NCBI GenBank assembly: GCA_905160935.1
Contig: CAJHZI010000242.1
Location: 62,001-126,000, forward strand
Origin: Enchytraeus crypticus
Taxonomy: Eukaryota; Annelida; Clitellata; Enchytraeida; Enchytraeidae
Length of the DNA: 64,000 nt
Direction of reading: 5' to 3'
Below the pieces are notes generated by a model. It was given only the letters and a program-made list of their open reading frames with translations. It had not been told where the DNA came from and made no database searches. Position 1 is the first letter of the stretch. Every line of letters begins with the position of its first letter. The position numbers and the translations under genes were made by a program. Positions 978 to 64,000 of the stretch are shown here, piece after piece.

Positions 978-3900
978 CTAGCACACAACGGGAGCAGAGT
1001 CTATAGGGGTCTCTCTATTGAGAGGTGAGGGCAGCTGATTGGCCATGTTGTTGTTATCAGGGCTGAGGTCGATGAGACGGTTGATTGACTCTGCTAGCTC
1101 TGCTATGGACACTCTGCCCCGCTGCTTGATGAACCTAGCCACGCCTTCATACTCCTCCCACGTGATGTAAACAAACTTTCCTCTGTCGTCTATGACACCA
1201 GAGAGCGCTCCGTCTTGCTGTAGGCTTCTGATGCGATCTATAGCGTCCTGATCAGTCAATCAAATACATCAATACATCAATCAATCAATACATCAATCAT
1301 TACATCAATCAATCAATCAGAGAGCGCTCCGTCCTCTTTTAGGCTTCTTATGCGATCTTCTAGCGTCCTGATCAATCAATCAATACATCAATCAATCAAT
1401 ACATCAATACATCAGTACAACAATCAATCAATCAATACATCAATCAATCACATAATAGGCAGTCCAATTTCACATAATATCTGTAAATTCCAATGTATAT
1501 TTAAATAGATAGTGGAGTTAATATCTAAAGAGAGGTAGACACACAGAGAGACAGACAGGCAGACACACAGACACACCTGGGTTCTGATCTTGAAATGAGC
1601 CGCCAGGTCTTCCAGCATAACCACCTTCATCTCCTGCGGCAATCAATCAATCAATTAGACAAAGTATTAATCAGTCAATCAATCAATCAATCAATTAGAC
1701 AAAGTATTAATCAATCAATCAATTAATCAATTAGCCAATGTATTAATCAATCAATTAATGAATTAGCCAATGTATTAATAAATAAATCAATCAATTAATC
1801 AATTAGCCAATGTATTAATAAATAAATCAATCAGTTAATCAATTAGCCAATGTATTAATCAATCAATCATTAATGAATTAGCCAATGTATTAATAAATAA
1901 ATCAATCAATTAATCAATTAGCCAATGTATTAATCAATCAATCATTAATGAATTAGCCAATGTATTAATAAATAAATCAATCAATTAATCAATTAGCCAA
2001 TGTATTAATCAATCAATCAATCAATCAATTAATGAATTAGCCAATGTATTAATAAATAAATCAATCAATTAATCAATTAGCCAATGTATTAATCAATCAA
2101 TCAATTAATGAATTAGCCAATGTATTAATAAATAAATCAATCAATTAATGAATTAGCCAATGTATTAATAAATGAATCAATCAATTAATCAATGAGCCAA
2201 TGTATTAATCAATCAATCAATTAATGAATTAGCCAATGTATTAATAAATAAATCAAACAATTAATGAATTAGCCAATGTATTAATAAATGAATCAATCAA
2301 TTAATCAATGAGCCAATGTATTAATCAGGAGTAAATTCTCAATCAATATTCACACAAGTGTTAGGCATCGGCTAATCAGAGAACAATTAATCTAATATAT
2401 TAATCAATCAAGTAGTTTATCAGTCAATCAATTAATCAATTAGTCCATCAATCAATCAATCAATTAGTCCGTCAATCAATCAATCTTTTTAGTCTGTCAA
2501 TCAATGAATCAATCCCATCAATCAATCAATTAATCAATAATTCTCTCAGTGTTCAAATAGATTAATATATATCTCTCTGTAGTGTAGTGTCAAGTGGTAA
2601 GCATAAAGGTTCCTACTCATACGCTGCTTTTAACACTCGGTAAAGAGAATTCCAACGATTAACGAGTTAAACCTTCACAAAATGCTATACTCTATCCACA
2701 GCTTAATGCAGCCTATGGTTTGGGAATATGGCTTCTGAGGTGTTTTCCTGTTGCCTTCCCCAGTTCTTGCTCATTCACCTCTTATGACACGTGCAGTTTA
2801 CGGTTGGTCTATTCTTCAGTGTCCTGGACACAAGATGGATTAATTGTTTCATTCAATAGACTGAAACATAGGTTCACAATTTAGCATTCAGACTTTTGTA
2901 CAAATGATCTTTTATAAACATTATAGATGAAAAATCAATCAATAAGATTTAATTTCACTTAATTAAGTGGAAAATTTATTACAATAAATTTTAAAGTTTT
3001 AAATGTAATTTTAAAAGTAAAGTTTGTAACATCTGCTTGCAAGACATATTCTCCCTGTTTCTCTGCCAAATAAATGTTCCACTAAGCAACTAATCCCTGC
3101 CTCAATTAAGGCTTATAATTATAATATCATTAAAATAGTTATAATTTAGATGTAATTGCAGGCTCAGGGTTTTGACATACCTTTATATAGGAAATGAATT
3201 CCTGCAGAAGTGACTGCATCTGTAATAGAAAACACCAGAACTGTTGTGACAAGAAATACTACTTATATCAAGTGCTCAGATTTATCACAGCTTAACAATA
3301 TTGTAAGACAAGCTACAAGTTAGGGTAACAAATACATAAATTAATAAATCAATTCATCAATTAACAACTAAATAAATAAATAAAACAAATCAATTACTTA
3401 ATCAATTCATCAATTATTAAATAAATAAATTAAATATTTAACTAATTCCTCAATTATCAAATAAATAAATTTTTTAACCAATTCATCAATTAACAAATAA
3501 ATTAGTTTATTCATTAATTAAGCAATAAATTAATTCATTAATTATTTCGATTTACTATGATGTCATTTTTGGTCTTACTTTTTATCATTGTACTGTTTGA
3601 TTTGTTTTCTGTTATTTTTCTTCCTGTCAAATGTTGACGAATAAAGAAGTAGATATATTAATTCATTAAATAATTCATCAATTAACAAATAAATTAATGT
3701 ATTCATCAATTAAAAAATTAATTCATTCATTAAATAATTCATCAAATACTTAGAACACTTATGTCTCGTACATCCTCTTCATTGACAGCCTCAGTTCCCT
3801 CCTCCTCTACAGAAAACTCTGCCTTGAGCCTCAGATACTCCTCGTGCTCTCTCTTCTCCTTCTCTTCTCTCAATCTCTTCTCCTCCGCTTCCTGCATCAA

Positions 3901-5701
3901 TCAATCAATCAATCAATTAAATGGCATCATCAATCAATAGTCAAGGAATCAATCAATCATTAATTAACTGGCTCAGTCAATCAATCCATCAATCAATCAA
4001 TCAGTCTATTCCAGCATTCAATCAAATATCAGTAAATTTATAAATATATGCAATAAATTGCTTAATCTGTTAATATATAAAAATAAATCAGTAAATCTGT
4101 TAATTTATTTGTAAATTTTAAATGCAAATCAGTGATTCATTAAGATACATATAGAGAGCCAGGTATAATGTCTGTCTCTTGCTAGCCTAATTATAAATAT
4201 TAGTTAAACAATAACATTTATCACCATCATCATAATCATTAACATCATCATCATCATCATCTTTCCTTGAACGTCAGTCTCTTGCTAGCAAGTCAGTGAC
4301 AGAGAGATGGCTGGGTGTGATTGAACCCTGCACCCAGTGACCCGCTGTTCAACCACTCCTCCACAAGCCACTGACCGATTGAGTAGTATTGGGCTTGTTC
4401 TAGTTAACTGCATCATTCATTACGTTTGTTTCAATTTTCTGCACCTATTGTGTGATTTACTTACAATGGTTATATTCCTTTTGCATTGACTTGTAGCTGA
4501 TTGCACTTCTGTTGTTCATCGTTTGAAATTCGAAATTAAACTATAGATACTTCTCTGAATGAATTGAACTTTCTCTCTGACTCAGTTCAAATCTCAGAGA
4601 CTAAATCAAGAACTGTAAACAAGAGTTCCAGACCTTGGCGGCTTCTTCGGCTTCCTGCTTCTCTTCTTCTTTCTTTCTCATCTGTTCCAACTTTTCTTCT
4701 TGTTTCTTCCTCTCCTCACGTTCCTGCTGCTCGGCCTGTGCAACAACAACAACATCACAACTTGTGCAACAACATCACAACCTGTTCAACAACAACAACA
4801 ACATCACAACTTTATTTTTATTTTGTTTTCTATTGTGTTCCAATAAAAGTTAATTCACAATTCTAAACTCATTAATAGATTAATAGAGGCAATGTTAATA
4901 GATTAATAGAGGCTATGTTAATAGATTACTAGAGGCTATAGTAGTAGATTACTAGAGGTTATGTTAATAGATTAATAGAAATCTCTCATGTTAAGTTCAA
5001 AGAACTAAAGACAGATCTCTCGCTCACCTCTCTTTGAGCTTTTCTCGCAGCTTTCTCCTCAAGTTTTCTCTGCTTCTTTACGCCAACTTTCTCCTCAGGA
5101 AGGGTCGCACTGACCTCCACGTCTCCATCTTCCTCCTCATCATCTGTGTGTCAATCAATCAATCAATCAATCAATCTATCTATCAATCAATCTATCCATC
5201 AATCAATCTATCAATCAATCTATCCATCAATCAATCTATCAATCAATCAATCTATCTATCAATCAATCTATCTATCAATCAGTAAATCCATCAATAAATC
5301 AATCATCCAATCAATCAATAATCCAATCAATCAGTCATCCAATCAATCAATCAATTCAAAGGTACGTTAGATGATTTAAAGACCCACTCATATGTGGAAA
5401 TGAAGAGGAAGGCGGACGACAGAGAAGAGTGGAGGCGTTATGTACCATGGACCTGCCAGTAGTCAGTACACTAAGAGAGATATCTGTCAATCACTCTAAC
5501 CCGGCTCCGCCCTATGCACCAGTCTGCGCCTAGGCTCTGCCCCTCCTGCTCTCCTCCTCCCCGCCGCACGTACCACAGGCACCGCTCCCCCACGAGCTGC
5601 TGCCCCGTCCCTTGCTCCTGCATCGGCTGCCTCGCCACCTAATAATTGTTCATCAATTTTATTTATTTATTCAATTAAATTGATTTCAATAGTAAAATGT
5701 A

Positions 5702-5756
<55 letters not shown>

Positions 5757-5779
5757 ATATTATATATAATATATATCTA

Positions 5780-5816
<37 letters not shown>

Positions 5817-6594
5817 ATAATTCTATACATATATACATGTATAATTGTATATGTATATATGTGTGTGTGTGTATGTGTATGTGTGTGTGCATATATATAT
5901 ATATATATATACATTATATATATACATATATATATACATATATAAATATATATACATATTATATATATATAATATATTACATAATTATAAAGTTTCTTAG
6001 CACTTGTGAACTACCATACACTATTCAGGCAAAGAAGTCATCCAATTAATAATTACAAAAATAAAAATAAATAAAAACTCCTCAGTAGAATTGAGGAGTT
6101 CATAAAGCAAGAATTCACTAATAATAATAATATATCAATTAAAGTATAAAAGCGTCTAAATAACATTTCATAACATAAGAAGCCAAAGCCAACATATCAA
6201 CAGATTTGTAAAGGTCCATTAAAAGGTAGAAGTCCGAAATCTGGTCAGGGAAAGAAACAAAAAGTTAAACTATACAGTTAAAATTAAAAGTTAAAATAAA
6301 AGATTATCACCATCATCATAATCATCATCATCATCATGATCTTCCCTTGAATCCAATTTTAACTAGATTCGGTATACGAACAGATTTCCAGTCCTCTCTG
6401 TCCTATACCTATATCATTCAATCCACTATTAAAATAAAAGATTTATATATTACATAATATACTATTAAACATCTCAACATCTCAAATTCACACAGCATAT
6501 ATCTTTAACCTTTTTGTTTTGATCCGTACAGGAAGTAGAAGAGTCCGGCAAAGACAAGAGTTAGGAATCCTAATGATAAATACAACAACTCCAT
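978..6594 (-). CDS. DDRGK1: DDRGK domain-containing protein 1 (UFMylation scaffold), 8 exons, complete
   Basis: Exons on the minus strand: 6594-6510, 5638-5501, 5143-5028, 4735-4634, 3891-3772, 3219-3181, 1633-1577 and 1247-978. All joints are GT-AG and phase-consistent, giving 927 nt and 308 aa (human about 314). Seen: an N-terminal hydrophobic segment ([20 protein letters not shown]), a basic/glycine-rich linker, a long charged helix rich in E, K and R (about residues 76-190, including [17 protein letters not shown]), then a winged-helix/PCI-like C-terminus with [12 protein letters not shown] and [14 protein letters not shown]. Known for the family: an ER-membrane adaptor that works with UFL1 and CDK5RAP3 to attach UFM1 to substrates such as ribosomal protein uL24. 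Exon 6 is only 39 nt. Exon 8 has a decayed duplicate of its start at 1319-1378. The acceptors of exons 3, 5, 7 and 8 sit next to (TTGA)n tracts. Exon 2 has a weak pyrimidine tract and is the least certain exon. Confidence 0.93.
1319..1378 (-). pseudogene. Decoy duplicate of the DDRGK1 exon 8 acceptor and exon start
   Basis: It repeats 1199-1258 at roughly 90 percent identity, including the acceptor (TGATCAG) and the next ~48 nt of exon. A one-base insertion shifts the frame, so splicing to it would disrupt the DDRGK domain. (TTGA)n lies on both sides. Confidence 0.85.
1640..2330. repeat. AT-rich minisatellite in DDRGK1 intron 6
   Basis: Units built from TTAGCCAATGTATTAAT alternate with AATAAATAAATCAATCAATT in blocks of about 60 bp. 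It grades into simple TCAA repeats at both ends. Confidence 0.9.
4290..4378 (-). repeat. tRNA-like SINE fragment (family D)
   Basis: On the minus strand an A-box-like GTGGAGGAGTGGTTGAACAG precedes a B-box-like CAGGGTTCAATCACACC. It lies in DDRGK1 intron 4. No matching acceptor stem was found, so a SINE head is more likely than a tRNA gene. Confidence 0.4.
5150..5360. repeat. TCAA/TCTA tetranucleotide tract in DDRGK1 intron 2
   Basis: Tandem TCAATCAATCTATC variants begin directly behind the exon 3 acceptor. In the sense strand of DDRGK1 the tract reads (TTGA)n. Confidence 0.95.
5366..5490 (+). mobile_element. LINE 3' end, family X (C-terminus of reverse transcriptase ORF)
   Basis: It reads [20 protein letters not shown], then EWRRYV with small frame changes, then a CACTAAGAGAGA tail. 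Identical segments occur at 11522-11645, 11742-11800, 11864-12030 (minus), 39610-39735 (minus), 59048-59170 and 62505-62560. All are 5'-truncated, which is normal for LINE insertion. Confidence 0.7.
5707..5985. repeat. (TA)n / (TG)n microsatellite in DDRGK1 intron 1
   Basis: Long TATA runs are interrupted by TGTGTG and TACATA. Reading frames across it are low-complexity YIYI/CVCV and are not genes. Confidence 0.97.
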
Positions 6595-7014
6595 GTTTAC
6601 ATCAACAGCTGTTCACCACTACTCATTTGGTAGAGCGAAAATGCTGCTAACAGCAAGGGCAATAGTTGCCAGAGGAATACAATATTTTCTCAAAGTTTTA
6701 TATCCTACCAAATAGAAATATCGAGGCGTAAGTTTTTGTGCTTCTTGTTCTATGTTTACCACTTCCTATCTTCAAAATTGAAATGAACACCTTTAAACGA
6801 TTATTTTGAGCATTTAAAATTAAACTGCAAGGCTCAAAGATCTTTAAAATAAAGCAAGGATCGACAATGCAGAAACTACTATTGCTTATCTACAAACTAC
6901 TTCAATTGCATTGCAACCTTCACCTTTAGTGTCTGTTAATTTATTTCACTTTATACACCACCCAACTAAGCATACATGTATGATCTCAACGCGTCACTGG
7001 GGTATACATGTACA

Positions 7015-8230: not shown

Positions 8231-8239
8231 CCTATCGAC

Positions 8240-10150: not shown

Positions 10151-10159
10151 GGTATAATC

Positions 10160-10305: not shown

Positions 10306-10477
10306 GTTCTATCTCAAAACTAGCAAATAACATTAAAAATGCTGAGATTGTGAAATATGTTATAAAATATTGCAGAATTATAAGTCTTGTGATAGCCAGT
10401 GGAGTTCAGTAGTGAGTAAGTATGTAGGTAATGTACTTGTATGTAGATAGACATGTGTGTATGTATGTGTATAGCTG

Positions 10478-11392: not shown

Positions 11393-11423
<31 letters not shown>

Positions 11424-20079: not shown

Positions 20080-20229
20080 CTACACAACAACTGTTGATAT
20101 AGTTAATATCCTGTACTCTAAAACCCTTCCTCTTGAAGACCTCTACACAACAACAACAACTGCTGATATAGTTAACACGTTGACTGCCGACTGATTAATT
20201 TTGTCCCACAGCCTGTGCCCAGCTTCTGG

Positions 20230-21360
20230 TATCACCTACATAAGCAAGAAATCCATCACATTAAGATGCCATTCAAAGGTTTTCCAGCTTCAAGCCATAT
20301 TTTATGTGAAGTAATAGATTTTGATTTCAAAATAGACAAATCACTAATCCACCAATGCTTAAATCTTTTTTGTGGGATAAAGGATATACACTTATCACTA
20401 GCTGTCAGCAATGCGTGCACAATTTCCCTGTAATACTGTTCGATTTGCGTATTTGACAAACATTCATTGACAGCCAAAATATCTACAACGCTTTCATATA
20501 TGAGGTACAACAATTGTCTAGTCATATCATAATATTTATCAACATTACTTTTATCCCAACGCAAAAATTTCTTAGTGAAAGCAGTGCTAGTAACCGGTAC
20601 TGGGCGACCAGCTGTTACAGATGAGAAAAATGTGGAATGTATTGGCATAGCTAAGCTAGCAACTACAGGCAAATGATCAGAGTGATTTAATGCATTATGG
20701 ACTATGTCATAATTTACTAAGCAATCAGATATGCAATCAGATATACAAATATAATCAATTAAACTAAAATGGCTTAGCTTAGCATTTGAGAATGTGTATA
20801 CAATGTCATTATTAGGGGCGTTAACATTAACAGTTTTGATTTTATAATTAGCCAAGAAAGAATTAATTACAAGAGCATGTGCAGAATTGGTCCTCGGATC
20901 TGCGTTAAAATCTCCTCCAAATATATAGTACACGGCATCTGATTCTTCTATAATTAAACTGACATTTGTTAGAATATCATTTAGTTCATTTAAAGTTTTA
21001 TCTGATCCATCATAACAAGTTAAATATACATTATGAACAAGACATCTTCAATAGTCACAGTTACAATACGTTCAAATGTATGTATGTCACTACATAGTTT
21101 AACAAGACTCTTTCACAAGTATGGCTGTACTACCTCAGGGCCTGCCCCTCTGAAGTCCTTCTTCAACGACTTGTTCCATGGCAGAAATTCCAAAGCCAAT
21201 GTAATTATCATTAAACTTTGTAATTTTTTGTAGATTAGCAGGGGATACCCAATATTCCTGAATAAAAATTAAATCGTAAATACCCGAATTACACAGTTCT
21301 TCTAAAAGAGTACACCCCTGATTGAGACAAAGGAGGTTGTACGATATTACAGATAGATTT
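20230..21360 (-). pseudogene. LINE endonuclease (EEP family) fragment
   Basis: Downstream frame (20933-20256) has FGGDFNADPRT, LIDYICISD and NHSDHLPVVA, the catalytic D-x-N, L-I-D-Y and S-D-H motifs of apurinic-type endonucleases. It continues into linker sequence ahead of the missing reverse transcriptase. The N-terminal part at about 21350-21050 (GIYDLIFIQEYWVSPANLQK) is in another frame with stops. Confidence 0.75.
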
Positions 21361-23179: not shown

Positions 23180-23722
23180 TTCAGAAGCTACATTGAGAGC
23201 GGAATCTGAAAGAAGATACAGTAAGGTCATTATATACTTTCAGACCTAATTTCCGCATTTGCAAGAGTTTCTGTCTCGTGGCGTCGTTCCGGATACCTAT
23301 CACAATTCTATCGCGCAGGAGGGAATCTTCTACATGTAGATCGCCGTACTCGCAAGTACGCACACGTTTACGTAAATCAGCCAGGTACACATCGAAAGGT
23401 TCTCCTTTGTCCTGCGAACGACGATTAAATGCGTATCTCTCGTAAGTGATATTTGTTTCACGTACAAAATGTTTCTCAAACGATTCTATTGCTTTATCGA
23501 TCTCGCTTGCATCCTCTTCGCTGAGCTGCATCGTCTGAAACAACTCGAAGGCCTCGGCACCAACACATGCGAGGAAGATAGCTGCTCGCTATGAAGTGGA
23601 CTCACTTGTCAGTTTTGCTGCTTTCTCGTAGTTAATCCACTGTCCCTTGAAGCGTCTCCACTCTATTGTCAGTCATGTTTTCCGACATCTTTAGTGCTGC
23701 TGGGATCGGTATCTGAGACATC
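23180..23722 (-). pseudogene. Ty3/gypsy-type gag remnant
   Basis: Reads QWINYEKAAKLTS, AIFLACVGAEAFELFQTMQL, then RYAFNRRSQDKGEPFDVYLA, DLRKRVRTCEYGDL and LRDRIVIGIRNDATRQKLLQ. This is the usual retrotransposon gag layout (W-x-N-Y-E, F-x-x-R-x-Q, LRDRIVxGI). It has one in-frame stop and a frameshift near the start. No zinc knuckle, protease or RT follows. It lies downstream of the LTR at 23868-24238. Confidence 0.75.
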
Positions 23723-25039: not shown

Positions 25040-25200
25040 CTCACTGGTCTGTGTTCTTATGATTGTAGCAGCCAGGTTGTACTCGCTGGTCTGTGTTCTT
25101 ATGATTGTAACAGCTAGGTTGTACTCACTGGTCTGTGTTCTTATGATTGTAGCAACCACGTTGTACTCAGTGGTCTGTGTTCTTATGATTGTAGCAGCCT
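25040..25200. repeat. ~43-bp tandem repeat abutting a possible exon
   Basis: Four units contain CTGGTCTGTGTTCTTATGAT and GTTGTACTC. Read on the minus strand each ends ATAAGAACACAG|ACCAGTGAG, an acceptor plus nine bases. The innermost unit runs into ETKIFLRTAIHCAADITSSY before a GTGTAAGT donor. On the plus strand it could instead be donor-side repeats after VLRKIFVSL. Confidence 0.5.
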
Positions 25201-25281: not shown

Positions 25282-28200
25282 GCCATCAGCTCATCATCTC
25301 CTCGTGGACTCTCTTGCTGTCTCTCACAGCACTGCGGCGCTCTCCACTTCGGTAATTACCCCGTGGCTGTTCCAGACTACGAGTGCCGTGGTCAATCACG
25401 GACCAGGCGCGCTAGTGTGGTACATTGTGAGCCCCAAGAACGTGGTAAAGTTTACCACGCTGGCAAAGGTTTAGACTTTATTGTTACTCTCCTGATTTTA
25501 GGAAGATTTGATTACTGTGTGCTATATTGATTCTCTCTTGATTTGTAGGAAGATTTGATTTCTGTGTGCTACATTGATTCTCTCTTGATTTGTAGGCAAA
25601 AAACTTCAGACTTGTGCTGAGTTGATTAGCATGATGTGTAGTACAGAAAGCAACATAAAAAAGAGCATTGTGATGGCTTATTGTTTGTGATTATATGATA
25701 TTAGAATATGGACAGTAGTTATTCTGCATCCTCAGTGTATCAACAAGAATACAGTCATGTACAATCAATATTGAATGTTTCTTTGGCTGCACTTTCGAGT
25801 ACAGCGCTTCCTATATGATGGAAGAAATTGAAGTTTTCCAACTTTTCAGTTCTGTACTAAATTTTTGTTCAAAATTGGTTTTATGTGCTTGATATGAAAT
25901 GTTAATATGTAAGGTTTCTGATTCCAATTGATTTTAGCTTTTACTCCAGATTTTGTGAGCGTTTAATTTTAAGCATTATAGTTCTTTATACTCGCTTCAA
26001 GTCAAGATCAGCTGACTAACTGTCAGCCCTTGTTCTCAACTTCAGTTAGAGGATATTGGTGATTTAATTATGACAACAAGCATATTTTATTCTTTAATAA
26101 TATTACGATTAAACATATCGTTTGGACGTTAGTGTTAGTGTTGAGCGTAAATGTTATGTTTTTGTCTTATTATAAACCAATTATATGCAAAATCCTGTCT
26201 TAAGAAGTGACATGCAGGAGGAATTCGTTGAGAAAACTAAGAGTTAACTTTATCTAGGAGTTATGTGATAAAGATCTTTTGATTCAAGTAACTCAGTTAA
26301 CTTTGTTGATTGATTGATTGATGCATTTCTATTAATTAAGTTGATATTTTTGATATGATTGATATTCATACGCACAGAAATGTTTCCAGTAGAGTATAAT
26401 ATATGCCGCCACTTTCTCTCTCATGATCGCTGTGTCGTCCACCCAGCACTGCTGAGGAAAAAGGACGTTCCTGTGGGTGTGGTGCGGCAGCAGGCTGGAT
26501 TAATTGTTAAGATCGTTGACTAATTGTGCGGACTGATTGTTTTGATTGATTGGGTAACGTGTAGAGTTATTTCGTTCAACCTCTTGCTTATTCAGTCATC
26601 ACTATAGAGTTGTGGTCAACAGAGATGTAGTTTATAGAAGAATGCTAAGTATATCTTATATAGATCATTTTAAAAATGAAGTTGTTTTACAAAGAATGTC
26701 TACTTGTCTTGACTTTTTGAACCGAATACGACGACAATAGATGAAATTTTTCGGACACATATATTTGAAAATACCGTAGGGACAGGAATAATAAAGGCAA
26801 AAGATGCAAGGGTCGACAGCGGATGACGTTTATTAAGAGTCTTAACAAATGGATGCAGTTAACTGATACAGAGATGATCAGAGCAACAAAGAACAGAGAC
26901 ATATGGAGGAATATGACCATGACCGCCTAGGCTTGGAACAGGCACGGCACTTAGAGAGAGAGAGATAGAATGATTGGTTGATAAATTGTTGAAAAGTGTA
27001 GCTGTATGATGAACAAAAGCAGTAAGTATTGATTGATTGATTACTTGCTTGTATGATTGATTAATTGATTGATTGTTAAACTGTATAAAGGTGAATTGAA
27101 GATTAGCAACAAGCAGCATTGATTTATTGATTGATCGTTTTGTAGTGCGCCTGCCGTATAAGTGTGAGCGGATTCGACCAGGTACCTCACTTTGCTGCTC
27201 AGGAGCCAGCCAGACCGGACGATGACGACACAGGTTTGTCTTTATCAGGTAGTCAATGATGTTGAGGTTAACGTTTGTTCTGCCTCACAGAGATGGCTGT
27301 TAGTGCCGATGAGACAGGGCTTTGAACCAACGGTCTCCTGCTTCTCTGCCAGCGTGCTATCCATTTGGCCATCTCATCGGCATTGTTCGTTTTTCCTTTA
27401 ATCATGTATGAGTCTCTGATGTATTGTGAGCAGCTCATCTGATACACCACGAGCCTCGCCTCTCTGCCTCTATTAAAACTCTATCTCTTCAAGTCTCTCT
27501 CCTGTTCTGTAAAGTGACTGGTTCGTGCTACCTATTCATAATCAGAGCTAATCCCTTCACAAAATTGTATGTCCTAATCTTGGATAAAGTGCATGAATTA
27601 GTGAATGATTGATTGATTGATAGAGTGCATGAATTAGTGAATGATTGATTGATTGATAGAGTGCATAATGTAGTGATTGGTTGATGGACAGTGAATCAGT
27701 TGCCTGATGAAGTAAAGGGCTTGCTCACGAGAGCAGTTGAAGGACTTGGCGCGAGGAGACGTGGGCTGATAATGGAAGTGTTGAGAGGAGTTGTCGCTGA
27801 CAAGACATCGGCTGTGCAAGGTTTGTCAGAGAGACGCGTTCTTAATACAACTTAGTCACCTTAATACAACTTAGTCACACATACAACACTCAGTGCACGC
27901 ACACACAATACTGAATACGAGGAGAAACACGCATACATACTTACATACACACCCACACATAATAACACACACCCATACATACTTACACGCACACACCCGT
28001 ACATACTTACACACACACACCCGTACATACTTACACCCGTACACACATACTTACACACACACGCCCGTACATACTTACACCCGTACACACATACTTACAC
28101 ACACACGCCCGTACATACTTACACCCGTACACACATACTTACACACACACGCCCGTACATACTTACACCCGTACACACATACTTACACACACACTCGTAC

Positions 28201-35900: not shown

Positions 35901-36736
35901 GGTAACTTGCTCTAAGGTATTCTACTTCACTCTTTATCTAGTCATTGAAGCCTTTCTGATATATGTCAATCTTTGGTTCTATTACAGACTGATTGATTGA
36001 TTAGCTATGGGATAAATCTATAGATGTTTGGATTGATTGATTGATTGACTACAGGGCAGATCTATAGCAGTGTGGGACATGAACTCAGCCACTGATATCA
36101 ACCTGAGATGAGTGCTTGTGGGTCACACAGCTGATGATTGATTGATTGATTGATTGATTGACTACAGGACAGATCTATAGCTGTGTGGGACATGAACTCA
36201 GCCACTGATATCAACCTGAGACGAGTGCTCGTGGGTCACAGAGCTGCGGTGAATGTTGTGGACTTCGACAACAAGTACATTGTCTCTGCGTCGGGTGACC
36301 GGACTATCAAGGTCTGGCACACCGCCACGTGTGAGTTTGTCCGTACACTGACGGGCCACAAGCGTGGAATAGCCTGTCTCCAGTACAGAGACAAGCTTAT
36401 TGTCAGCGGCAGCTCTGATAATACGATCAGGTGTGGTGTGCGCGTGTGCGTACATGAAAACTGTGACGATTCTTATTTCAGTCTGTTTCATTCTAATCTG
36501 TGCATGTTGTGTGATAGCTAAGGTACTAATTGACCCTCTACACTCAAGGAATAATTAAATTATTATAAAAATATGTTTTCTATATGTATAGTTAGATTGA
36601 GCTGCTAATTGATTGATTGTTGGATTGATTAAGTGACTGATAGATCGATTGACTGATTATTAAATTGTGTTGTTGATTGATTGACTGATTATTATATTGA
36701 TTTACTGTTTGATTGATTATTAGAATGATTGCTGCA

Positions 36737-36767: not shown

Positions 36768-37974
36768 GCAGGTTGTGGGACATAGAGTGTGGCGTGTGTA
36801 TAAGAGTGCTGGAAGGTCACGAGGAACTCGTGCGTTGTATCAGATTTGATTCTAATCGTATCGTCAGTGGCGCTTACGATGGGTTCTTATTACTTGCTCT
36901 TGATTCTCTTCTAACTCCTCCTCCTCCATTCTTATAATCCTAGTACTCTTTAATCATATTTTTCTTTCATGTTTGTGCATGTGACATGTCAGTGCTTGGT
37001 CTAAGATGTATAAGCTTTCTGCATTTCTGTTTAGTCATTCATTCATAATTTCCCTGCTCTTGCTTATTTACTATTTTTTCATTATTCTATTTGTACACTG
37101 GCAGTAAAATAGACAGTAGATGATAGCAATGGCTGTTTTGAGTAATTTAATAATTTGTGCAGTAAATATAGTGTGTGGGACCTACGTGAAAACAATACCG
37201 TGTCTTTATTATTTACTGCACTAAGATAAAGGTGTGGGACCTGCTTGCATACAATATGGTTGATGTATTATTTATTGCAGTAAAATAAAGGTGTGGGACC
37301 TACATGCTAGTTTACAATATGGTTGATGTATTATTTATTGCAGTAAGATAAAGGTGTGGGACCTACATGCTGCTCTGGATCCTCGAGCGCCTCCTGGAAC
37401 ACTCTGCCTCAAGACGCTTGTGGTGCGTCCATTACGTTCATATTTCTTATATTTTGGATCACAAATTCATTTTAGCTGCGTTGGTGAATAACTGTAATTC
37501 ATTAATTGCAATAATTAATTATAGTTTCGGATTGTTTTGAAGTAAATTTAATGCTGAGTTGCTTGGGAACAATATTTACTCTCATCGGCGGTACTGAACG
37601 AACCTGATATTCACTAGCTCTTGCTAACGTTCTTCTTTTAATTTTCTATTTCATTTATTTTCAGAACAATAACATTATTCTAGTCATAAGTGAATAAGTT
37701 GTTGCTTAAGAGTTGCTAGAAATAAATTAAGCAACTGTAATTAAATTAAATTAAATTTAAAACACAAATAATGGTATTGATTAGGTAGATATTGATTGAT
37801 GTGTTACAGGAGCACACGGGACGGGTGTTTCGGCTGCAGTTTGATGGGATTCAGATCATCAGCAGCTCCCATGATGACACGATACTCGTCTGGGACTTCC
37901 TCAACGTCTCTGATTCGTCGGCTGAAGACTCCGCATCCTCTCCTAACCGCACCTACACATACGTGCCCAAGTAG
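31456..37974 (+). CDS. BTRC: beta-TrCP / FBXW11-type F-box WD40 protein, 11 exons
   Basis: Exons: 31456-31494, 32433-32667, 33095-33281, 34007-34100, 34544-34681, 34902-35020, 35811-35916, 36168-36430, 36772-36882, 37344-37422 and 37810-37974. Phases agree throughout: 1536 nt, 511 aa (vertebrate paralogs about 540-605, longer at the N-terminus). Seen: a dimerisation region (about 30-85; [11 protein letters not shown] at its end), an F-box (about 88-135; [18 protein letters not shown]), a linker with [12 protein letters not shown], then seven WD40 blades (about 205-495) with motifs such as [32 protein letters not shown] and [13 protein letters not shown]. Known role: substrate receptor of the SCF ubiquitin ligase, binding DSGxxS phosphodegrons of beta-catenin and IkB. 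One ortholog cannot be assigned to BTRC versus FBXW11. Exon 1 supplies only 13 residues, so alternative upstream starts are possible. Exons 8 and 10 have decoy duplicates upstream. The exon 3/4 joint reads Cys where vertebrates have Trp. Confidence 0.95.
32258..32372 (+). repeat. SINE family B in BTRC intron 1
   Basis: AGTGGCGAAGTCGGTAAGAC (A-box region), GGGGTTCAAATCCTGGGCTC (B-box), then CGTCACTGACATCGC. Followed by TTATG repeats. Confidence 0.75.
32915..33058. repeat. (GA)n microsatellites in BTRC intron 2
   Basis: Two GAGAGA runs just ahead of the exon 3 acceptor. Confidence 0.97.
33290..33610. repeat. TCAA/TCTA tract at the 5' end of BTRC intron 3
   Basis: It begins 9 nt after the exon 3 donor. 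In sense orientation it is (TCAA)n, the reverse of the acceptor-side tracts. Confidence 0.95.
34181..34260. repeat. 80-nt perfect hairpin in BTRC intron 4
   Basis: Twenty-eight perfectly paired bases per arm (left arm begins TATCCATATAATCTCATTGC) enclose a 24-nt loop that itself holds CAACTATAGTTG. Size and pairing fit either a tiny fold-back element or a microRNA-type precursor. Confidence 0.85.
34320..34540. repeat. TATGTCTCTATGTATTTAGG minisatellite in BTRC intron 4
   Basis: Irregular ~18-bp units of GTCTCTATGTGTTTAT type reach the exon 5 acceptor. Confidence 0.85.
35215..35590. repeat. 21-bp palindromic satellite in BTRC intron 6
   Basis: About 17 units. The homogeneous core is CTATTTTACAGTACTGTAAA plus T, containing the 16-bp perfect palindrome TTTACAGTACTGTAAA. 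Units are degenerate at the left edge. Confidence 0.97.
35985..36133 (+). pseudogene. Decoy duplicates of BTRC exon 8 start
   Basis: From 36055 it copies the first ~79 nt of exon 8 after a CTACAG acceptor (reads [15 protein letters not shown]), then a stop where exon 8 has CGA (AGATGA versus AGACGA). A third, more decayed copy at about 36005-36030 reads GATAAATCTATAGATGTTTG. Each is preceded by (TTGA)n. Confidence 0.9.
37160..37343 (+). pseudogene. Tandem decoys of BTRC exon 10 acceptor
   Basis: Three copies (near 37161, 37208 and 37278) of TTATTTATTGCAGTAAGATA with the next ~20 nt of exon (AAGGTGTGGGACCTACATGC), each diverging before the true exon at 37344. Confidence 0.9.
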
Positions 37975-40185: not shown

Positions 40186-47223
<7,038 letters not shown>

Positions 47224-47269
47224 CCCCGCCCCCTTGTGCTAATGTATAGCTTGTTATGAATGAATGTCA

Positions 47270-48125
47270 CATGATGCATGTGATTAACTGCATCGCTTGA
47301 TGCATGTGAATTACTGCATTGCTTGATGCATGTGATTAACTACATCGCTTGATGCATGTGAATTACTGCATTGCTTGATGCATGTGATTAACTGCATCGC
47401 TTGATGCATGTGATTAACTGCATCGCTTGATGCATGTGAATTACTGCATCGCTTGATGCATGTGATTAACTGCATCGCTTGATGCATGTGATTAACTGCA
47501 TCGCTTGATGCATGTGATTCACTGCATCACTTGATGCATGTGATTAACTGCATCACTTGATGCATGTGAATTACTGCATCGCTTAATGCATGTGATTAAC
47601 TGCATCACTTGATGCATGTGATTAACTGCATCACATGATGGATGTGATTAACTGCATCACTTGATGTATGTGATTAACTGCATCACATGATGGGATGTCA
47701 ATTAACTGCATCACATGATGCATGTGATTAACTGCATCACTTGATGCATGTGATTAACTGCATCACTTGATGCATGTGATTAACTGCATCACTTGATGCA
47801 TGTGATTAACTGCATCACTTGATGCATGTGATTAACTGCATCACTTGATGCATGTGATTAACTGCATCACTTGATGCATGTGATTAACTGCATCACTTGA
47901 TGCATGTGATTAACTGCATCACTTGATGCATGTGATTAACTGCATCACTTGATGCATGTGATTAACTGCATCACTTGATGCATGTGATTAACTGCATCAC
48001 TTGATGCATGTGATTAACTGCATCACTTGATGCATGTGATTAACTGCATCACTTGATGCATGTGATTAACTGAACTGCATCACTTGATGCATGTGATTAA
48101 CTGCATCACTTGATGCATGTGATTC
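47270..48125. repeat. 26-bp minisatellite after ACTR1
   Basis: Unit TGATTAACTGCATCACTTGATGCATG (written here as TGATTAAC + TGCATCACTTGATGCA + TG). About 33 units, the left third diverged (TCGCTT) and the right homogeneous. It starts about 45 nt after the ACTR1 stop codon, so it may be transcribed in the 3'UTR. Confidence 0.95.
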
Positions 48126-48556
48126 ACTGACTATTTTTAATAATAACGTATTTGTGTGTGACGATGTTAGCTGATTGTTTTACAACCCTGACGATGTCTG
48201 CATTTAAGAAATCTGCCGTTTAGTTTATTGATTGATTGATTGATTGATTTATGGATTGATTGATTGATTGAGTGATTAATATTACAGTGTGCTTATGTAA
48301 CCTAGTATGCGTATATATTTGTTGTATTTATTGATATAAGACTGGTACGTCTGTAGCATATCGGTTACACGTTTAGATTTTCCTTGCTAGGGGTTCTACT
48401 GCCTAGACTCTCCCGTCACTGATGTGTCGATGGGCCCAGATGTTGATGATGTGTTGTCTATAAAATAAAGTGTTGTCAATGTTCGCAGCCATTTCCAACA
48501 AAACAGCAAAATAACATATTTTACTTCCTTTCTGTTATTAGTTAAAATTCTGAAAC

Positions 48557-54043: not shown

Positions 54044-54094
<51 letters not shown>

Positions 54095-56579: not shown

Positions 56580-56581
56580 AG

Positions 56582-56623
<42 letters not shown>

Positions 56624-56735
56624 AAATACCGCTAAAGCTCTCTCTCTCTCCTCTCTTTCTCTCTCCTCTCTATCTTCTCTCTCTCTCTCTTACTCTCTCT
56701 CTCTTTCTTTTACTCTCTCTAAATACCGCTAACTA
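56560..56735. repeat. (CT)n with repeated gene 3' end
   Basis: TCTCTAAATACCGCTAA, which holds the last codons and the stop, occurs three times (56564, 56617 and about 56718) separated by CT runs. Confidence 0.9.
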
Positions 56736-57919
56736 TGTACATGACCAGTCTACACTTAAGTCTTTCCATGTGTTTCATAGTAATTGATACCATTCGTAAT
56801 TTATACGTATTTGTTTGTTATTCCAGCATATACTCCTGTTTCAGCATTCTCTTCTCGTGCTAAATTTGTAAGCTACACATTTTAGAACGAGATTTAGTTA
56901 AACTTTACTGTCAATTATTTAAAGGCTCATGTCGGAGTCGGCTGGCAGTGGAAGGCTAATACTATATCACTATGAACTGTTGTAACTTATTCACATATTA
57001 TAAACTCATTCTTGCTGTGATGTTTGCTTTAACCATTAGGCATTATAAGTATTTATTGACGGGTGCTGTGCAATTCTCAGATTTTACTTTCTGACCGTAT
57101 CTCTTAGAGTGGAGGGGAGGGGGATTTTGATATTTATTGGATAAATCAATCAATCAGTAACTGGACTCGCTTACTACAGTAAGATGTAGAATACTGCGTC
57201 ATTTATAGCGAGAGTTTAGCGTCAGGATCGTCATCTGATGATGATATCAGGGATGTTCTATGTATAGCTTACACTGTTGCTTGAATGAGGGAAAGTGAAA
57301 CCTCGTTATGAATAAAAAATACAAAAGTTACTGAATGACTTCGTCACACAGCTGGTCGTCGTGTATTTATTACTGTGAGATTTCCCTTTTTCAATTTCAT
57401 TTTCTGTTGCCGAACCGCTGATAGTAAAAGCGTACTCTTAATCTAGTTCTAATTTAATTTAAGATTTATTGCGAGACTGTTAAAGTTAACGCGATGCTTA
57501 TATTTCTCTATCATAGCTTTATTCTGTTAACAATATATTTTCTAATTTTATAACTCCATAAAAAATTTCTTGGTGTCATAAATGACGGCAGCGCTCTAGT
57601 TGTTTTACTGTTATAATGTTATTGACGCGTCATGTGTAAGCTATTGGGTCATATTTTATAACTATACATGTATGTTCCGTGGTATTTTTACAATGTTGTA
57701 TAGTTTTCTATTGTAACGTTATTAGTCGTGTATCTATACATTAGGACTCTGAGAAAGGGCATGCACATATTGAGTTGTGTAGGAATGAGTTCTCTATTGT
57801 AATACTCGTCTGTTTTTATCCTGTAATTTTAGTGTTCATTGCTGCCTAAATTAAATCATGTTGAGCCTGTAAATGTGAAGATCTCCTATAGAAACTGCGT
57901 AAAGGATTAGCGCATTGAT

Positions 57920-58080
57920 TAACCCTAACCCTATTGAAAAACCCTTAACCCTTAACCCTATTAAAAAATCCTTAATCCTAATCCTATTGAAAAACTCTTA
58001 ACCATATTGAAAAACCCTTAATCCTAATCCTATTGAAAAACCCTTAATCCTTAACCCTATTGAAAAACCCTTAACACTAA
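57920..58080. repeat. Telomere-like interstitial repeat
   Basis: CCCTAACCCT and CCCTTAACCC motifs (complement of TTAGGG type) alternate with ATTGAAAAA spacers in about 25-bp units. Confidence 0.7.
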
Positions 58081-58699
58081 CTAGCCGAAAATGCGGTTGT
58101 AAAAAATGCTAATATTTCCTTATATCAAACGGTTGACAGACAAAAATAACAAAAATGAAGGACAAAACAAAACAAAGCGCAGCTGTGTTATGAAGTTGAC
58201 CTGTCGTTTACGAAACTGGACGAGCGAAGTTGAATTTTGTTATCCAGAGTTTACTTTTGTTATCCAGAGTTTACTTTTGTTATCCAAAGCTTAGTTTTGT
58301 TATCCAAAGTGGAGTTTTGCTATCAGCGTACATTTAATTCAATGTGCTTCATATGTATGTGATCAGTCCTAGTTATTATCAAGGATGTCAGTATTTCTTC
58401 AAATCTGCGGTTTAGTTTGTAATGCTCATGTGCCTACGTTCATATTTCCTGTTCTCGTTAGGTTAATCTAAGACTTGTATTACTTAATTATTCACGACAA
58501 AGGTTTAACGTCAATTTCCTCATCTAAGGATGGCGTCAGTGACATTCCTTTAGCAATAAACTTCCGTATTTGCTGAATTTCGCTTGTATGGTCAGTTTTG
58601 TACGTTTATTTTGTGTTCTTTGTGTCTACGCGATCTACAGTATGTTTAGTTTTAATTAGGCATTAAATGTTTCTAGAATTTTGGGTACACTTAGCGGGA

Positions 58700-58785
58700 G
58701 GATGGTAGAGAGGTTAGCGAGGTTGACTGATAGCCCAGAGATGCTGGGATCAACCCTCAGTCAGATCAAAAAATCAGAACAGACA
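58700..58785 (+). repeat. Possible tRNA-like SINE fragment
   Basis: GGTAGAGAGGTTAGCGAGG followed by a B-box-like CTGGGATCAACCCTCAG. No tail was recognised. Confidence 0.25.
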
Positions 58786-59047
58786 GCTGTGTTGTTTTAT
58801 TTATTTTAGACTTTAGCAAGTATTAATTTATTCTATTGTATTTTATATAATTTTGATAATTAATAAACTGTATACTGTAAGTATAAATCTGTTCTATATA
58901 TGAGATTGGAATGTTGAGATTGTTTAACGAGACAAATAAACGTTTAAACTACAATGACTATTGCGTTGACTTCACTTCTGCATTGTTGACTTTTCGTATC
59001 TTAACGATATACGCTGTCTTATATAACAACTAGGAATGCCAGATTAG

Positions 59048-59170
59048 GGATGTTAGATGATTTAAAGACCCACTCATATGTGGAAATGAAGAGGAAGGCG
59101 GAAGACAGAGAAGAGTGGAGGCGCTATATACCATGGACCTGCTAGTAGGCAGTGCACTAAGAGAGAGAGA
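59048..59170 (+). mobile_element. LINE 3' end, family X
   Basis: Reads [20 protein letters not shown] and EWRRYIPWTC, then CACTAAGAGAGAGA. It is the best preserved copy in the window. Confidence 0.75.
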
Positions 59171-59504
59171 TATAACAACTAATCACTACAATAACAAAAC
59201 ATCACGTCATATCACACATATCTCATCTCAAAATTTAAATTACATAAATCATTGAATTCATCTCAATCAGTCCAAAGGCATCAATCACAAACTTAAATCA
59301 AAAGCAAACAAGTCATTTTATCCTGTGACTATAACACTAGACCAGTGTCTTTAGAGATTTTTCAAAGCAGTCATATATGTCACATCTAAAATTATTATTA
59401 ATATAGACTCACTCATGAATATGCATTTAAAACCATGAATATGCGTTAATTAAACTCCTCATGAATACAAATTAAGCCTTTCCATGAGTACAAATTAAAT
59501 CCTC

Positions 59505-59812
59505 CCTGAATATGCATTAAAGTGATTAACCTCCTTGAATATGCATTAAAGTGATTAACCTCCTTGAATATGCATTAAAGTGATTAACCTCCTTGAATAT
59601 GCATTAAAGTGATTAACCTCCTTGAATATGCATTAAAGTGATTAACATCCTTGAATATGCATTAAAGTGATTAACCTCCTTGAATATGCATTAAAGTGAT
59701 TAACCTCCTTGAATATGCATTAAAGTGATTAACCTCCTTGAATATGCATTAAAGTGATTAACCTCCTTGAATATGCATTAAAGCGATTAACCTCCTTGAA
59801 TATGCATTAAAC
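59505..59812. repeat. 29-bp minisatellite downstream of MED16
   Basis: Unit GATTAACCTCCTTGAATATG plus CATTAAAGT, about 11 copies with almost no divergence. Confidence 0.97.
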
Positions 59813-59963
59813 CCTTAATGAATATATTAACATCCTTCAAAAATTTGTAATGAACTGCTCCATGAATATGCATTAAAGGCATAAACACTCTGTACTGCAC
59901 ACCTTGTACATAAAATTACAGGTAAAAACATTTAAGATATGCACGACACAGATACTATACAGA

Positions 59964-62900
59964 CTATATAACTGGAACAGCCTGCTCTAGTTTCCACGGA
60001 CCACCACACACACAGGCTCTCTCAAATCTCAGCTCCCAAACTTTCGCTGCCGGCAACCGAGCGATCCTATTGGCCGACGATCTGCAGCCGCAGCGCAGAC
60101 AAACCCTAAGCCCGTCCTCTTTTGGCTCGCCGCCAGGTCTCGTAAGCTCCACCCTCTCGCTGTGATTGGCTGTCACGAGCGAGGCTTCGCTCTGATTGGG
60201 CGTAGCTCCCAGACCAATCAGTCTGACTACGTCTCTCACGTGACTAGCCCTGCACTGCCCGGGCAGCAAAGCCACATCGGTTCTAGCGCTAGACTCTATG
60301 ACACTCCTGTAGCTGTGCATGGGTCTCTCCCCGAACACGTACTTGAGCGGAAAGTCCTGCGAGAAGAGCTGCTGCGAGTAGTCGAGACACCCAAACAACC
60401 CCTCGTCCACTGGCGGCAGGTGAACCTGACTCAGAAACGTGCAGCACTCGTCGATCAGCGCCTCGTCATATTCTCTCGGCACGCGTCCAACGCCGGCACC
60501 GCCTCCGTTGGCAGCGTGCCAGATCTTGGTGATACACCTGAAGATGAGAGGAAGAAAGTCGACGTTCTGTACGGTGCTGCTGAACCTGGGCTGACAGGTG
60601 GTGCTGATCAGCCCCCACGTCTTTATCACCACCAGCAGCTCCCTCAGCGTAAACAAACAGCCGGAATCCCGCAGCAGGGAAACCCCCGGGTAATTCCCAG
60701 CACCGGAAAGTCCCGACCCTGCGCTGCCACCGACTAGAGTGGAGACGATGCCGATGAGATGAAGGGCAAGGTCGGCGACCCACTGGATGAGAGGCTGCAT
60801 GGAGAGGAGGGATAGGGATTCGATCACAAAGTTCTTGTCAGGATTGAGCGACATGACGATAGCGTCGATGTCAACGTCTGTATGCGCGCTACAGCTCATC
60901 GTTAGACGTTCTGCCGGAGACTACTCAGTCAATCAATCAATCAGTTAATCAGTCAGTTAATCAATCAATCAATCATTCAATCAATCGATGTCAACGTCCG
61001 CGTGCGCGCTACAGCTTATCGTCAGACGTTCTGCTGGAGACTACTCAGTCAATCAATCAATCACTCAATCAATCAATCAGTCAATCAATCAATCAATCAG
61101 TCAGTTAATCAGCTAATTAATCAATCAATTAATTAATTAATCAATCAATCAATCAACCAGTCAGTCAATCAGCCAATCAATCAACCAGTCAGTCAATCAA
61201 TCAATCAATCAGTTAGTGAATCAATCAGTCAATTTATCTATCTATCTATCTATCTATTTATCAATCAGTCAATCAATCAATCAGTTAATCGATCAATCAG
61301 TTTCTCTATCAATCAGTAAACCAATCTATCACTCAATCTATCTATCCATCAATCATCAATCAATCAATCAATCAATTAGTCAGTCAGTCAAATATGAGAA
61401 ATTATAATATAACTCACACAGCTCACAACAGAGTCATAGTCATAATTATGTGTTATATTAAATAAAAAAATTAATTGCTCATGATATTATTAAGTATAAT
61501 TTATATTTAATATTTCACATTATCCAGTTAACCTGGGATTTAGGGGAAGATGATGATGATTGCATATTATCCAGCATATAACGCATATCACAGACAATTA
61601 CTAAAACATCAGAACATACGGTTAAATAGTTAAAACTGAAATATGCACAGTTTACGTTCAGTTTATTATGAACTAACAGATGACATGTTAAGAATCAGTT
61701 AAAGAGTCATCATCTACCATTTCAAAGTCAGCCTTGGGACTCACTCGTCCGTCAGATCTTGAAACGACAGAAAGTACATAGAATAAAGCTAATAAAAAAG
61801 CTAATGTTAACGTCAGTTCCTCACTCGAAAGCGATGTTAGTGACGGGCGAGCCCTGGATTTGAACCCCGCACATACTGATCCGCGGTCGAGTATCTTACC
61901 GACATCGCCACGGGCTCCAGCAAATAGAAACAGGAAGGCCAAGACCTACCACTTCACTGGCAGACAGGACTTTAGGCCTGAGCAGAGACTTGAAGTAGCT
62001 GGATATACAGTGCAAAAGTATCCTGCAGTGACAGTCAGCTGCTCTCAGCTGTCCACAGCTGCTGCTGCTCAGCTTATACAGCGCCATCTTCTGAGTGAGC
62101 AGCCTAGTGTATAACAACTCCTGGGCGCTTGCTGGCTGCTTGCCAAAGTTATCTGATAGCTTCACCAACACACTCTCCACCATTCCTGCGTCCTCAATCA
62201 ATCAATCAATCAATCAATCAGTCAATCAATCAGTCAATCAATCAGTCAGTCAATCAATCATCAATCAATCCATTAATCAGTCAATCAATTAATCAATAAA
62301 TAAGTTATCTTTCACATGGAAATCAAGCTAAAAACTACAGATAATAGATAAATAAGGCTATATAGATTATACAGTTATAATTTAAGGTTTGATATAGGCT
62401 ACATTAAGGTTTGATATAGGCTACATTAAGGTATGATATAGTCTATGCCATTGTATAATAATCAGCATCTTAGTCAATGTAGTGCTCTTATTGAGAAGAA
62501 AGACAGAGATTGGAATATGTACCGTGGACCTGCCACTAGGCAGAATACGAGAGAGAGAGGGAGTGAGATAGAGAGTTAGATAGATAAATAGACAGATAGA
62601 TATATAGAGAGATAGAGAGGTAGATAGATAGAGAGATAGGTAGATAGAGAGAGAGAGAGATAGAGAGGAGAGAGAGAGAGAGATAGATAGAGAGAGAGAG
62701 ACCAGGTTTGACAGCAGTGAGACAGTCCCAATGATCTAGACCAGTGACGAGTAGGTACTCAAACATGGCGACTAGGAAAGGACTGGGAACCTGAGTGACT
62801 GGGTCCCTAGTGTTCACTGCCTTCATCACATACACACAGCTATACTGATCTATGCCCACCAGCACACAGCCTATCAATCAATCATCACATCAGTCAATCA

Positions 62901-64000
62901 ATCCATCAATCAATCTTCACATACACACAGCTATACTGATCTATGCCTACCAGCACACAACCTATCAATCAATCAATCAATCAATCAATCAACCAATCAA
63001 TCAATCAATCATCTAGTGAAAATATAAATTATTAACCAAAAAACAAGATCTATATAAGACATACACAAGATATACAATGTCACACATTAGTGACAGTATC
63101 GTTTCTGATATGAGAACAGTCTAAGAGACGTTAAACTTTGCTTTTAATATACATTTGTTATAAAACAGTTACTTTCTGCTATAGGACACAACATGTATGC
63201 AGCATTCTCTTCTCAGCGTATGTTGCAAATCATTCCACCACATGTAACTTTAATACCATCTTACTACAAGTAAAAAGACGTCTGGTAATTCATTAAAAGA
63301 CGAGAAAATTGAAATATAAAACACCATTTCTTTATAAAGACTTTGCATGATATCAATCCGGCTGCGACTGAGAGCTAATCACTTGTAATAGGTATAGCGC
63401 CGAATGCCCAAATCTTCCAGAAAACACTCGCATTTCATCACCATACCAACAACCAGTAATTTAAAAAGAAATGATTAACACGGTATTAACCAAAACATAA
63501 AAACATATATATTATTATTGTATAATTATTATTATGGTATTGTGACAGGGTATTAATTAACGATATATTTAACTCAAATCGTGAAATATCGTAACTTACT
63601 GTTACCCTAATCTCTGTGACGGTAGCTCGAGTGTGTCGAGTCGTGTTCAAGAGAAGCCTTTTGCTTCTGAACCATGACGTTAAACCCACTACAACCTACC
63701 TCTTAACACGGCAAAGTAACAACGATATAATTCTCAACCGGTGAACGACTGCTGCATGTGCGTCATGTGCGCCAAGGTCTTCCTCCTCTTATCCCCACAC
63801 ATCTCCTCCTCGAGGCCACTGCTCTTGAGGTCAGTGATCCCTGTGTCCAGGTTAGTCGTCGTCACGGGCTGAAAGGTCATCCGGTGCACGAGCTTGATCG
63901 ATCCGTCCCTATAGGCAATGGCGACGTACTGGAAGAGAGATGAGTCAGAGCAGCTGCCAGCTGTTCCAGCAGCTGCTGCGTCCAGGGGCCAGCAGCTGTC
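59964..64000 (-). CDS. MED16: Mediator complex subunit 16, C-terminal 534 residues (5' end outside window)
   Basis: Minus-strand exons: from beyond 64000 to 63739, 62870-62703, 62185-61958 and 60910-59964 (stop). Phases agree and give 535 codons including the stop; human MED16 is about 877 aa, so roughly the first 40 percent is missing. Seen: YVAIAYRDGSIKLVHR (end of the beta-propeller), FEYLLVTGLDHWDCLTAVKP, GMVESVLVKLSDNF, SSYFKSLLRPKVLSA, TDVDIDAIVMSLN, LRELLVVIKTWGLI, EALIDECCTFLSQ, and a C-terminal zinc-ribbon-like pair CLRCGC...CVCGG. Known role: tail-module subunit of Mediator, linking activators to RNA polymerase II. Two acceptors (60910 and 62870) have decoy duplicates upstream, and three acceptors adjoin (TTGA)n tracts. 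The intron 60911-61957 carries an antisense SINE. An alternative acceptor at 63928 is possible, but the frame stays open to the window edge, so I treat it as continuous exon. Confidence 0.93.
60985..61052 (-). pseudogene. Decoy duplicate of the MED16 last-exon acceptor
   Basis: Copies 60868-60930, including GACTGAGTAGTCTCC, the GGCAG/AGCAG acceptor and the first ~40 nt of exon, with about five substitutions. It lies 120 bp upstream in the intron among (TTGA)n. Confidence 0.9.
61055..61385. repeat. TCAA/TCAG/TCTA tract in the last MED16 intron
   Basis: Simple tetranucleotide repeats. In MED16 sense they read (TTGA)n. Confidence 0.95.
61795..61925 (-). repeat. SINE family B in the last MED16 intron
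   Basis: Antisense to the window and sense with MED16; GGGGTTCAAATCCAGGGCTC B-box region. Confidence 0.75.
62505..62700 (+). mobile_element. LINE 3' end remnant with long (GA/GATA)n tail
   Basis: TACCGTGGACCTGCCACTAG (family X end), then about 140 bp of GAGAGA and GATAGATA reaching the MED16 exon donor at 62702. Confidence 0.65.
62913..62972 (-). pseudogene. Decoy duplicate of MED16 exon (62870) acceptor
   Basis: Copies GATTGATAG plus the first ~46 nt of the exon (TGTGCTGGTAGGCATAGATC in sense), with a few substitutions, about 45 bp upstream of the real acceptor. Confidence 0.9.

Follow-up and report, generated by a model that had tools for sequence, protein, structure and literature searches.

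The window analysed here, a 64-kb stretch of one contig (C160; CAJHZI010000242.1, positions 62,001 to 126,000) of the annelid Enchytraeus crypticus, comes from an assembly of 524 Mb in 802 contigs (GCA_905160935.1), of which one haplotype was read. It holds models of four genes, BTRC and ACTR1 on the plus strand and DDRGK1 and MED16 on the minus strand, and in each of them the end of at least one intron, with its AG and the start of the following exon, is found again as one or more tandem copies in the upstream intron. These arrays at 3' splice sites (acceptors) are the subject of the present analysis. The gene models rest on alignments to human proteins, on Pfam matches and on splice phase, and comprise 27 acceptors and 25 5' splice sites (donors). 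The least certain site is the first acceptor of BTRC, that of exon 2 (E2); two exons in the N-terminal half of BTRC match the human protein at 52 and 63%, and MED16 is only distantly similar to its human counterpart, a comparison supported by a solved-structure alignment of the last exon. A protein search returned five MED16 relatives, all at 52% identity or less. Six of the seven cases listed in the initial annotation, namely DDRGK1, two in BTRC, ACTR1 and two in MED16, have homology-supported boundaries in consistent phase, whereas the acceptor of the seventh, in an OTU-like open frame, is unproven (Table 1).

Table 1. Tandem arrays at or near acceptors in the window, followed by arrays of less certain standing (window coordinates).
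Feature	Position	Strand	Description	Basis
DDRGK1 last exon	1199..1436	-	unit ~119 nt; real exon start 1247, upstream copy 1367	Tandem Repeats Finder (TRF), gene model
BTRC exon 8	36031..36246	+	unit 113 nt; real exon start 36168, copy 36055	
BTRC exon 10	37158..37371	+	~four copies; real exon start 37344; copies 37281, 37222 (AG lost), ~37163	
ACTR1 exon 5	42369..42535	+	unit 31 nt; real exon start 42518; nearest copy 42487	
MED16 last exon	60865..61103	-	unit 120 nt; real exon start 60920, copy 61040	
MED16 exon	62825..63011	-	lag 91 nt; real exon start 62870, copy 62961	
Repeat in OTU-like open frame	20100..20180	-	acceptor unproven	
Array of 42-nt units containing TTGTAG	25040..25199	+	directly before coding-like segment 25193-25468; absent from the initial annotation	
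Array of 47-nt units containing TTGTAG, then GAAGAT	25479..25596	+	putative exon; absent from the initial annotation	
20-nt units containing CACAG	4744..4797	-	ends ~10 nt before DDRGK1 acceptor (exon start 4735); no exon sequence copied	

The 500 nt preceding each acceptor were searched for a repeat of the exon start, and the 500 nt following each donor for one of the exon end; a tandem copy of intron end, AG and exon start was present at 6/27 acceptors of the four genes and the mirror event at 0/25 donors (Fisher two-sided p = 0.023). A second sample, consisting of nine chaperonin loci and DHX8 and picked by homology alone to avoid eye-catching cases, showed the event at 10/49 acceptors and 1/45 donors in the chaperonins and at 4/11 acceptors and 1/11 donors in DHX8, or 14/60 against 2/56 outside the window (p = 0.002). 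All samples together give 20/87 acceptors versus 2/81 donors (Fisher p = 5e-5), and a stricter complexity filter at identity of at least 87% gives 19/87 and 4/81. Two further chaperonin exons in loci already sampled, tested apart and outside the 87 and 81, had the event at neither end (0/2 acceptors, 0/2 donors). The acceptor copies exceed chance, given that mismatched exon/intron pairs yielded only 6/2576 matches at acceptors (and 2/2414 at donors). Among the 79 exons with both ends known, 17 carry the event at the acceptor only, two at the donor only and none at both (sign test p = 0.0007). The exon start recurred past the donor in 0/79, and the exon end ahead of the acceptor in 0/79. Considered by gene, the acceptor event occurs in 10/14 loci, on 6 of the 10 sampled contigs (sign-flip by gene, one-sided p = 0.001). 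The assertions that unrelated genes on both strands share the event, and that acceptors are strongly favoured when donors serve as the control, are thus borne out, and extend beyond the window. In support only, a codon-model scan of 118 coding-like segments of the contig, the window included, in which no complexity filter was applied and some segments were not exons, produced 15 matches at 5' edges against 6 at 3' edges. Two further coding-like segments of C160, with putative boundaries, have their 5' edge copied upstream (L011:1300-1620 and L020:8466-8705).

The chaperonin sample used 49 of the 57 PF00118 matches, on nine contigs; left out were five matches that lie in long open reading frames (on C373, C259 and C400) and one on C774 beyond the sampled stretch. 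DHX8, another gene of contig C160, contributed 11 acceptors and 11 donors. To place splice sites in this second sample, a position model with the window as its training set was combined with the open frame, and four chaperonin donors with a predicted score below 2.5 were excluded while weak-score acceptors were retained, hence 45 donors against 49 acceptors. On C259 (219813-222410) and C400 (245545-248142), chaperonin matches of identical scores and spacing lie in an 894-aa open frame, possibly as alternative haplotypes or a recent duplication.

Aligned without gaps, copy and original agree over 8-128 nt of intron before the AG in the 20 events, with the longest match extending into another copy, and over 17-79 nt of exon in 19 of them; the exception is DDRGK1, where the copy carries an indel and the exon match is 7 nt without gaps and 49 nt in a gapped alignment. 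The BTRC exon 8 copy spans 79 nt of exon, is identical at 74/79 positions and contains one stop codon. By the ungapped rule, 9/20 events have at least two upstream copies: L038 and L035 have four, as does ACTR1 exon 5 (42487, 42456, 42425 and 42394, all with the AG intact but with CAG in place of the TAG of the real site), one exon each of L034 and DHX8 has three, and L033 holds what appears by eye to be a longer run of partial units. Neighbouring copies are spaced from 31 nt (ACTR1) to ~131 nt (DHX8). The AG is kept in 34/37 upstream copies and the acceptor score equals or exceeds that of the real site in 22/37, and none of the 37 could be used without a frameshift or stop. The last copy is the one that continues into conserved coding sequence.

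That copies hold intron end and exon start together, as a pre-mRNA would, is what makes an RNA template (pre-mRNA, lariat or cDNA) conceivable, and the initial annotation had raised it for pre-mRNA and lariats. The same anatomy nevertheless disfavours it: the left borders show no single distance from the AG of the kind that a branch would impose, nearly half of the events have multiple copies, and arrays lying in the intron only also occur. Such templating is therefore hardly credible as the source of the copies.

The initial annotation knew of no process of this kind, but structures like these have been published as mirages in lancelet genes (PMC3087553, PMC3902484). Those reports place mirage minisatellites in lancelet Adh3, TnC, the globin genes BflGb6 and BflGb9, and PGBD5; for the globins they give units of 10-160 bp, 81-100% unit identity in BflGb6, many units with AG/GT signals, copy number that differs between haplotypes, and reverse-transcription PCR that suggests undisturbed splicing, with one array shown at the 3' end of an intron and another at the 3' boundary of an exon (PMC3087553). 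The arrays described here are similar in that tandem units span the intron-exon boundary in several copies with the real site beside the intact exon, in that the spacing falls within the published unit range, and in that splice signals are mostly retained. They differ in occurring in housekeeping genes on 6 of the 10 sampled contigs, and in their strong acceptor bias. Judged by its sequence features, the finding may be filed as a case of the mirage minisatellite kind, in which isolated lancelet reports were already known and the count of acceptor and donor bias is what is added; no earlier count of this asymmetry was found in the open-access literature searched.

One lancelet mirage appeared aberrantly assembled in the draft genome (PMC3087553), and the copies in E. 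crypticus differ mostly at synonymous codons, as alleles would. An assembly artefact, such as misjoined haplotypes, might be considered on both counts. An assembler, however, is blind to gene direction, and yet 5' exon edges are favoured on both strands and across the loci and contigs counted above; some arrays also consist of graded, decaying copies. An artefact is consequently very improbable as a general explanation.

The explanation preferred here, in which confidence and doubt are about evenly balanced, is a mirage-type tandem duplication that is common in introns and tolerated at acceptors as the exon-proximal site is the one spliced. Short segments are often tandemly duplicated in introns of this genome, as the sampled genes show. 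Where a duplicated segment spans a 3' splice site, frame and homology suggest that the exon-proximal copy makes the message and that each upstream copy turns into intron, and T/G-rich, low-complexity intron ends may add local slippage. Tolerance would stem from long introns in which splice sites are probably paired across the exon, such that published rules would favour the acceptor nearest the exon. Under exon definition, when the introns on either side are longer than ~200-250 nt, splicing favours the sites that lie nearest to each other across the exon (PMC9225289); because the median intron of 618 nt (61 introns) exceeds this length, the exon-proximal acceptor is predicted to win and upstream copies to do little harm, a prediction in line with the observations. 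Copies would likewise stay visible longer at acceptors, one partner there being a conserved exon, and the rarity of donor-spanning events would be due most simply to selection against residual use of a second donor.

In the window's four genes, arrays occur at 112/337 interior points as against 56/762 points outside these genes, and tandem arrays cover 12-20% of positions in bins 300-600 nt from splice sites (bins that may include other exons); acceptors are therefore not the sole place affected. Identity between copies was compared across 61 introns between exons that are neighbours in the protein, by a 24-nt gapless test and with the weak-donor cut not applied; interior points were available in the 49 introns long enough to provide them. 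At identity of at least 99%, arrays were present at 5/61 acceptors (8.2%) versus 5.4% of interior points by intron (8.6% pooled; 95% confidence interval (CI) of the difference -0.051 to 0.105) and at 0/61 donors (95% CI versus interior -0.109 to -0.017). The youngest copies show no significant targeting of acceptors and, on few events, a significant lack at donors. An earlier and less clean set of 73 donor-acceptor intervals, 13 of which have a gap in the protein match between exons and may hide an exon, gave 6.8% at acceptors, none at donors and 5.1% in the interior at this level, and 26%, 4.1% and 8.2% at 87% or more. Just inside donors, the frequency of arrays is ordinary, with 7, 7, 9 and 5 of 81 donors (+40, +60, +100 and +150) compared with 65 and 70 of 758 interior points, although an exon may be hidden in some of the intervals that supplied the latter. 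Older copies, by comparison, show a three- to fourfold excess at acceptors over the interior.

Several of the results weigh against tolerated duplication as the whole explanation. The exon-proximity rule is symmetric and would spare duplicated donors too, and for that reason leaves the donor deficit unexplained. The deficit relative to the interior is itself clear only in the youngest class, with its few events, and is not significant at 87-95%: at identity of at least 87% donors (3/61) are not significantly below the interior (CI -0.107 to 0.047), and the stricter window test finds events at 4/81 donors at 87% or more, two at 91% or more and one at 95% or more. At the same 87% threshold, acceptors stand at 18/61 (29.5%) versus 7.9% of interior points by intron (10.6% pooled; CI 0.087 to 0.359). 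Some of this excess is to be expected from the slower divergence of pairs in which one member is a conserved exon, but a doubled visibility time is insufficient because the interior rate hardly rises at looser thresholds; exon conservation accounts for the older acceptor excess only in part. Arrays are likewise more frequent at points that lie wholly within the intron, 40-100 nt before acceptors (14-15/87). Further, the synonymous share of differing codons is 54/89 over all copies and 16/24 in single-copy events, where free drift of the copy, with only silent change in the exon, predicts ~38%. A moderate hotspot, or selective retention, at acceptors is possible.

A mutational hotspot would mean that low-complexity intron ends, often with (TTGA)n, slip and copy the exon start, the bias then reflecting mutation and not selection at donors. 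Simple tracts are indeed enriched within 80 nt of acceptors (29/87, against 9/81 donors and 52/518 interior windows), array coverage peaks at 0.33 between -100 and -50 as compared with 0.10-0.19 in bins -600 to -300, and acceptors exceed the interior at identity thresholds of both 87% and 91%. The first array profile was partly inflated by imperfect microsatellites, but the acceptor excess persists under a stricter low-complexity filter. In introns of the window, of DHX8 and of L032-L040, sense-strand (TTGA)n of at least three units lies within 60 nt of 24/87 acceptors, 1/81 donors and 50/941 interior windows, the complementary TCAA form in none, three and four of the same sets. Among acceptors, however, the association of duplication with simple tracts is not significant (9/20 duplicated versus 20/67 other, p = 0.28), nor is that with TTGA alone (8/20 versus 16/67, p = 0.17), and it is the older classes that carry the acceptor excess, the youngest having no significant excess over the interior and no donor event. 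Slippage primed by (TTGA)n, as first proposed, accordingly finds no significant support and was rejected as the main cause; a hotspot in the wider sense is a reading that we doubt while giving it real weight.

The general branch-site pattern is YTNAY. Since TTGA followed by C or T fits it, the TTGA microsatellites before acceptors look, from their sequence, like reiterated branch sites. TTGA with C or T after it reaches a density of 39 per kb ahead of acceptors, compared with 4.8 past donors and 9.0 in intron interiors.

The excess of synonymous differences could also mean that upstream copies are functional, either coding part-time, as alternative or nascent mini-exons, or serving as reserve branch or acceptor sites. 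The first codon count used the best-matching copy per event, which favours synonymous differences, and omitted DDRGK1, in which the indel leaves no copy by the ungapped rule; the count was redone over all copies and over single-copy events to give the figures above. Copies within one event are not independent, and DHX8 alone supplies six of the 16 synonymous codons. In the last DHX8 exon matched (L018, C160 ~218.4-218.6 kb, minus strand) the six codons at which the copy differs all show synonymous changes, AG/GT closes the unit, and the protein would be the same by either splice route, including that from copy 1 into copy 2; for these reasons this exon is the strongest candidate for a period of use as coding sequence, and possibly a nascent intron. 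More generally, the synonymous excess may be due to such a spell or to unequal exchange between divergent haplotypes at the birth of the copies. The frequent retention of the AG would also be expected of functional copies, but it is not above that of control dinucleotides (690/814, p = 0.36). Amino-acid changes, moreover, abound in some older copies (in L032, the copy at -218 has them at 7/9 differing codons), and AG/GT lies inside the copied exon part only in DHX8 and BTRC E10 of 19 events (DDRGK1 not among the 19). A functional role for the copies in general is thus improbable.

A broader and rather unlikely proposal is that introns here grow one-sidedly. Copies of acceptor and exon start would be added repeatedly at the 3' end, the spliceosome would skip at least four intact acceptors, often of equal strength, before using the last one, and mirror-image duplications at donors would be purged. 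Some copies, that of DHX8 among them, may be incipient introns, coding constraint then acting on both copies.

Other features of the window lie outside this comparison. The OTU-like frame, which has no Pfam match at E <= 0.1 and stays open through its repeat, adjoins a mobile-element-like minus-strand frame (20259-21047) with a match to Pfam Exo_endo_phos_2 below the curated cut-off, and a second minus-strand frame (23184-23588), judged by eye, resembles mobile-element coding sequence. Long minisatellites occupy 44723-46037 in an ACTR1 intron (units of 24-84 nt) and 47267-48129 just past the ACTR1 stop codon (26-nt units). An inverted repeat noted by eye at 839-910, near the end of DDRGK1, has arms of ~22 nt, and an array at 57914-58081 has AACCCT-like telomere-type repeats interspersed with ATTGAAAA units. 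A GFP-family match was not found in the assembly, a weak negative as control genomes gave none either.

Two known systems invite comparison with tolerated mirage-type duplication. Neighbouring alternative acceptors are familiar as NAGNAG sites, which are 3 nt apart and of which both give a near-normal mRNA; the present units measure tens to more than 100 nt, and use of an upstream copy would break the protein. In the Rogers model, an intron is gained by tandem duplication of AG/GT proto-splice sites (as recounted in PMC3087553, with Drosophila cases in PMC2891723). The arrays share with that model, as it is told there, a short tandem duplication at or near splice sites, but an existing intron is lengthened at its 3' end and no new one is made. 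Intron gain by AGGT duplication does not fit the arrays as a whole: 17/19 events lack AG/GT in the unit, DHX8 and BTRC E10 being those that have it.

The arrays constitute a natural experiment on splice-site choice, in which several near-identical acceptors stand in a row and the arrangement that is tolerated shows which of them must be used. They turn isolated reports into a measured bias, of about one acceptor in five versus one donor in twenty to forty, depending on the test used. Finally, they provide ready candidates for in vivo tests of exon definition and intron gain.

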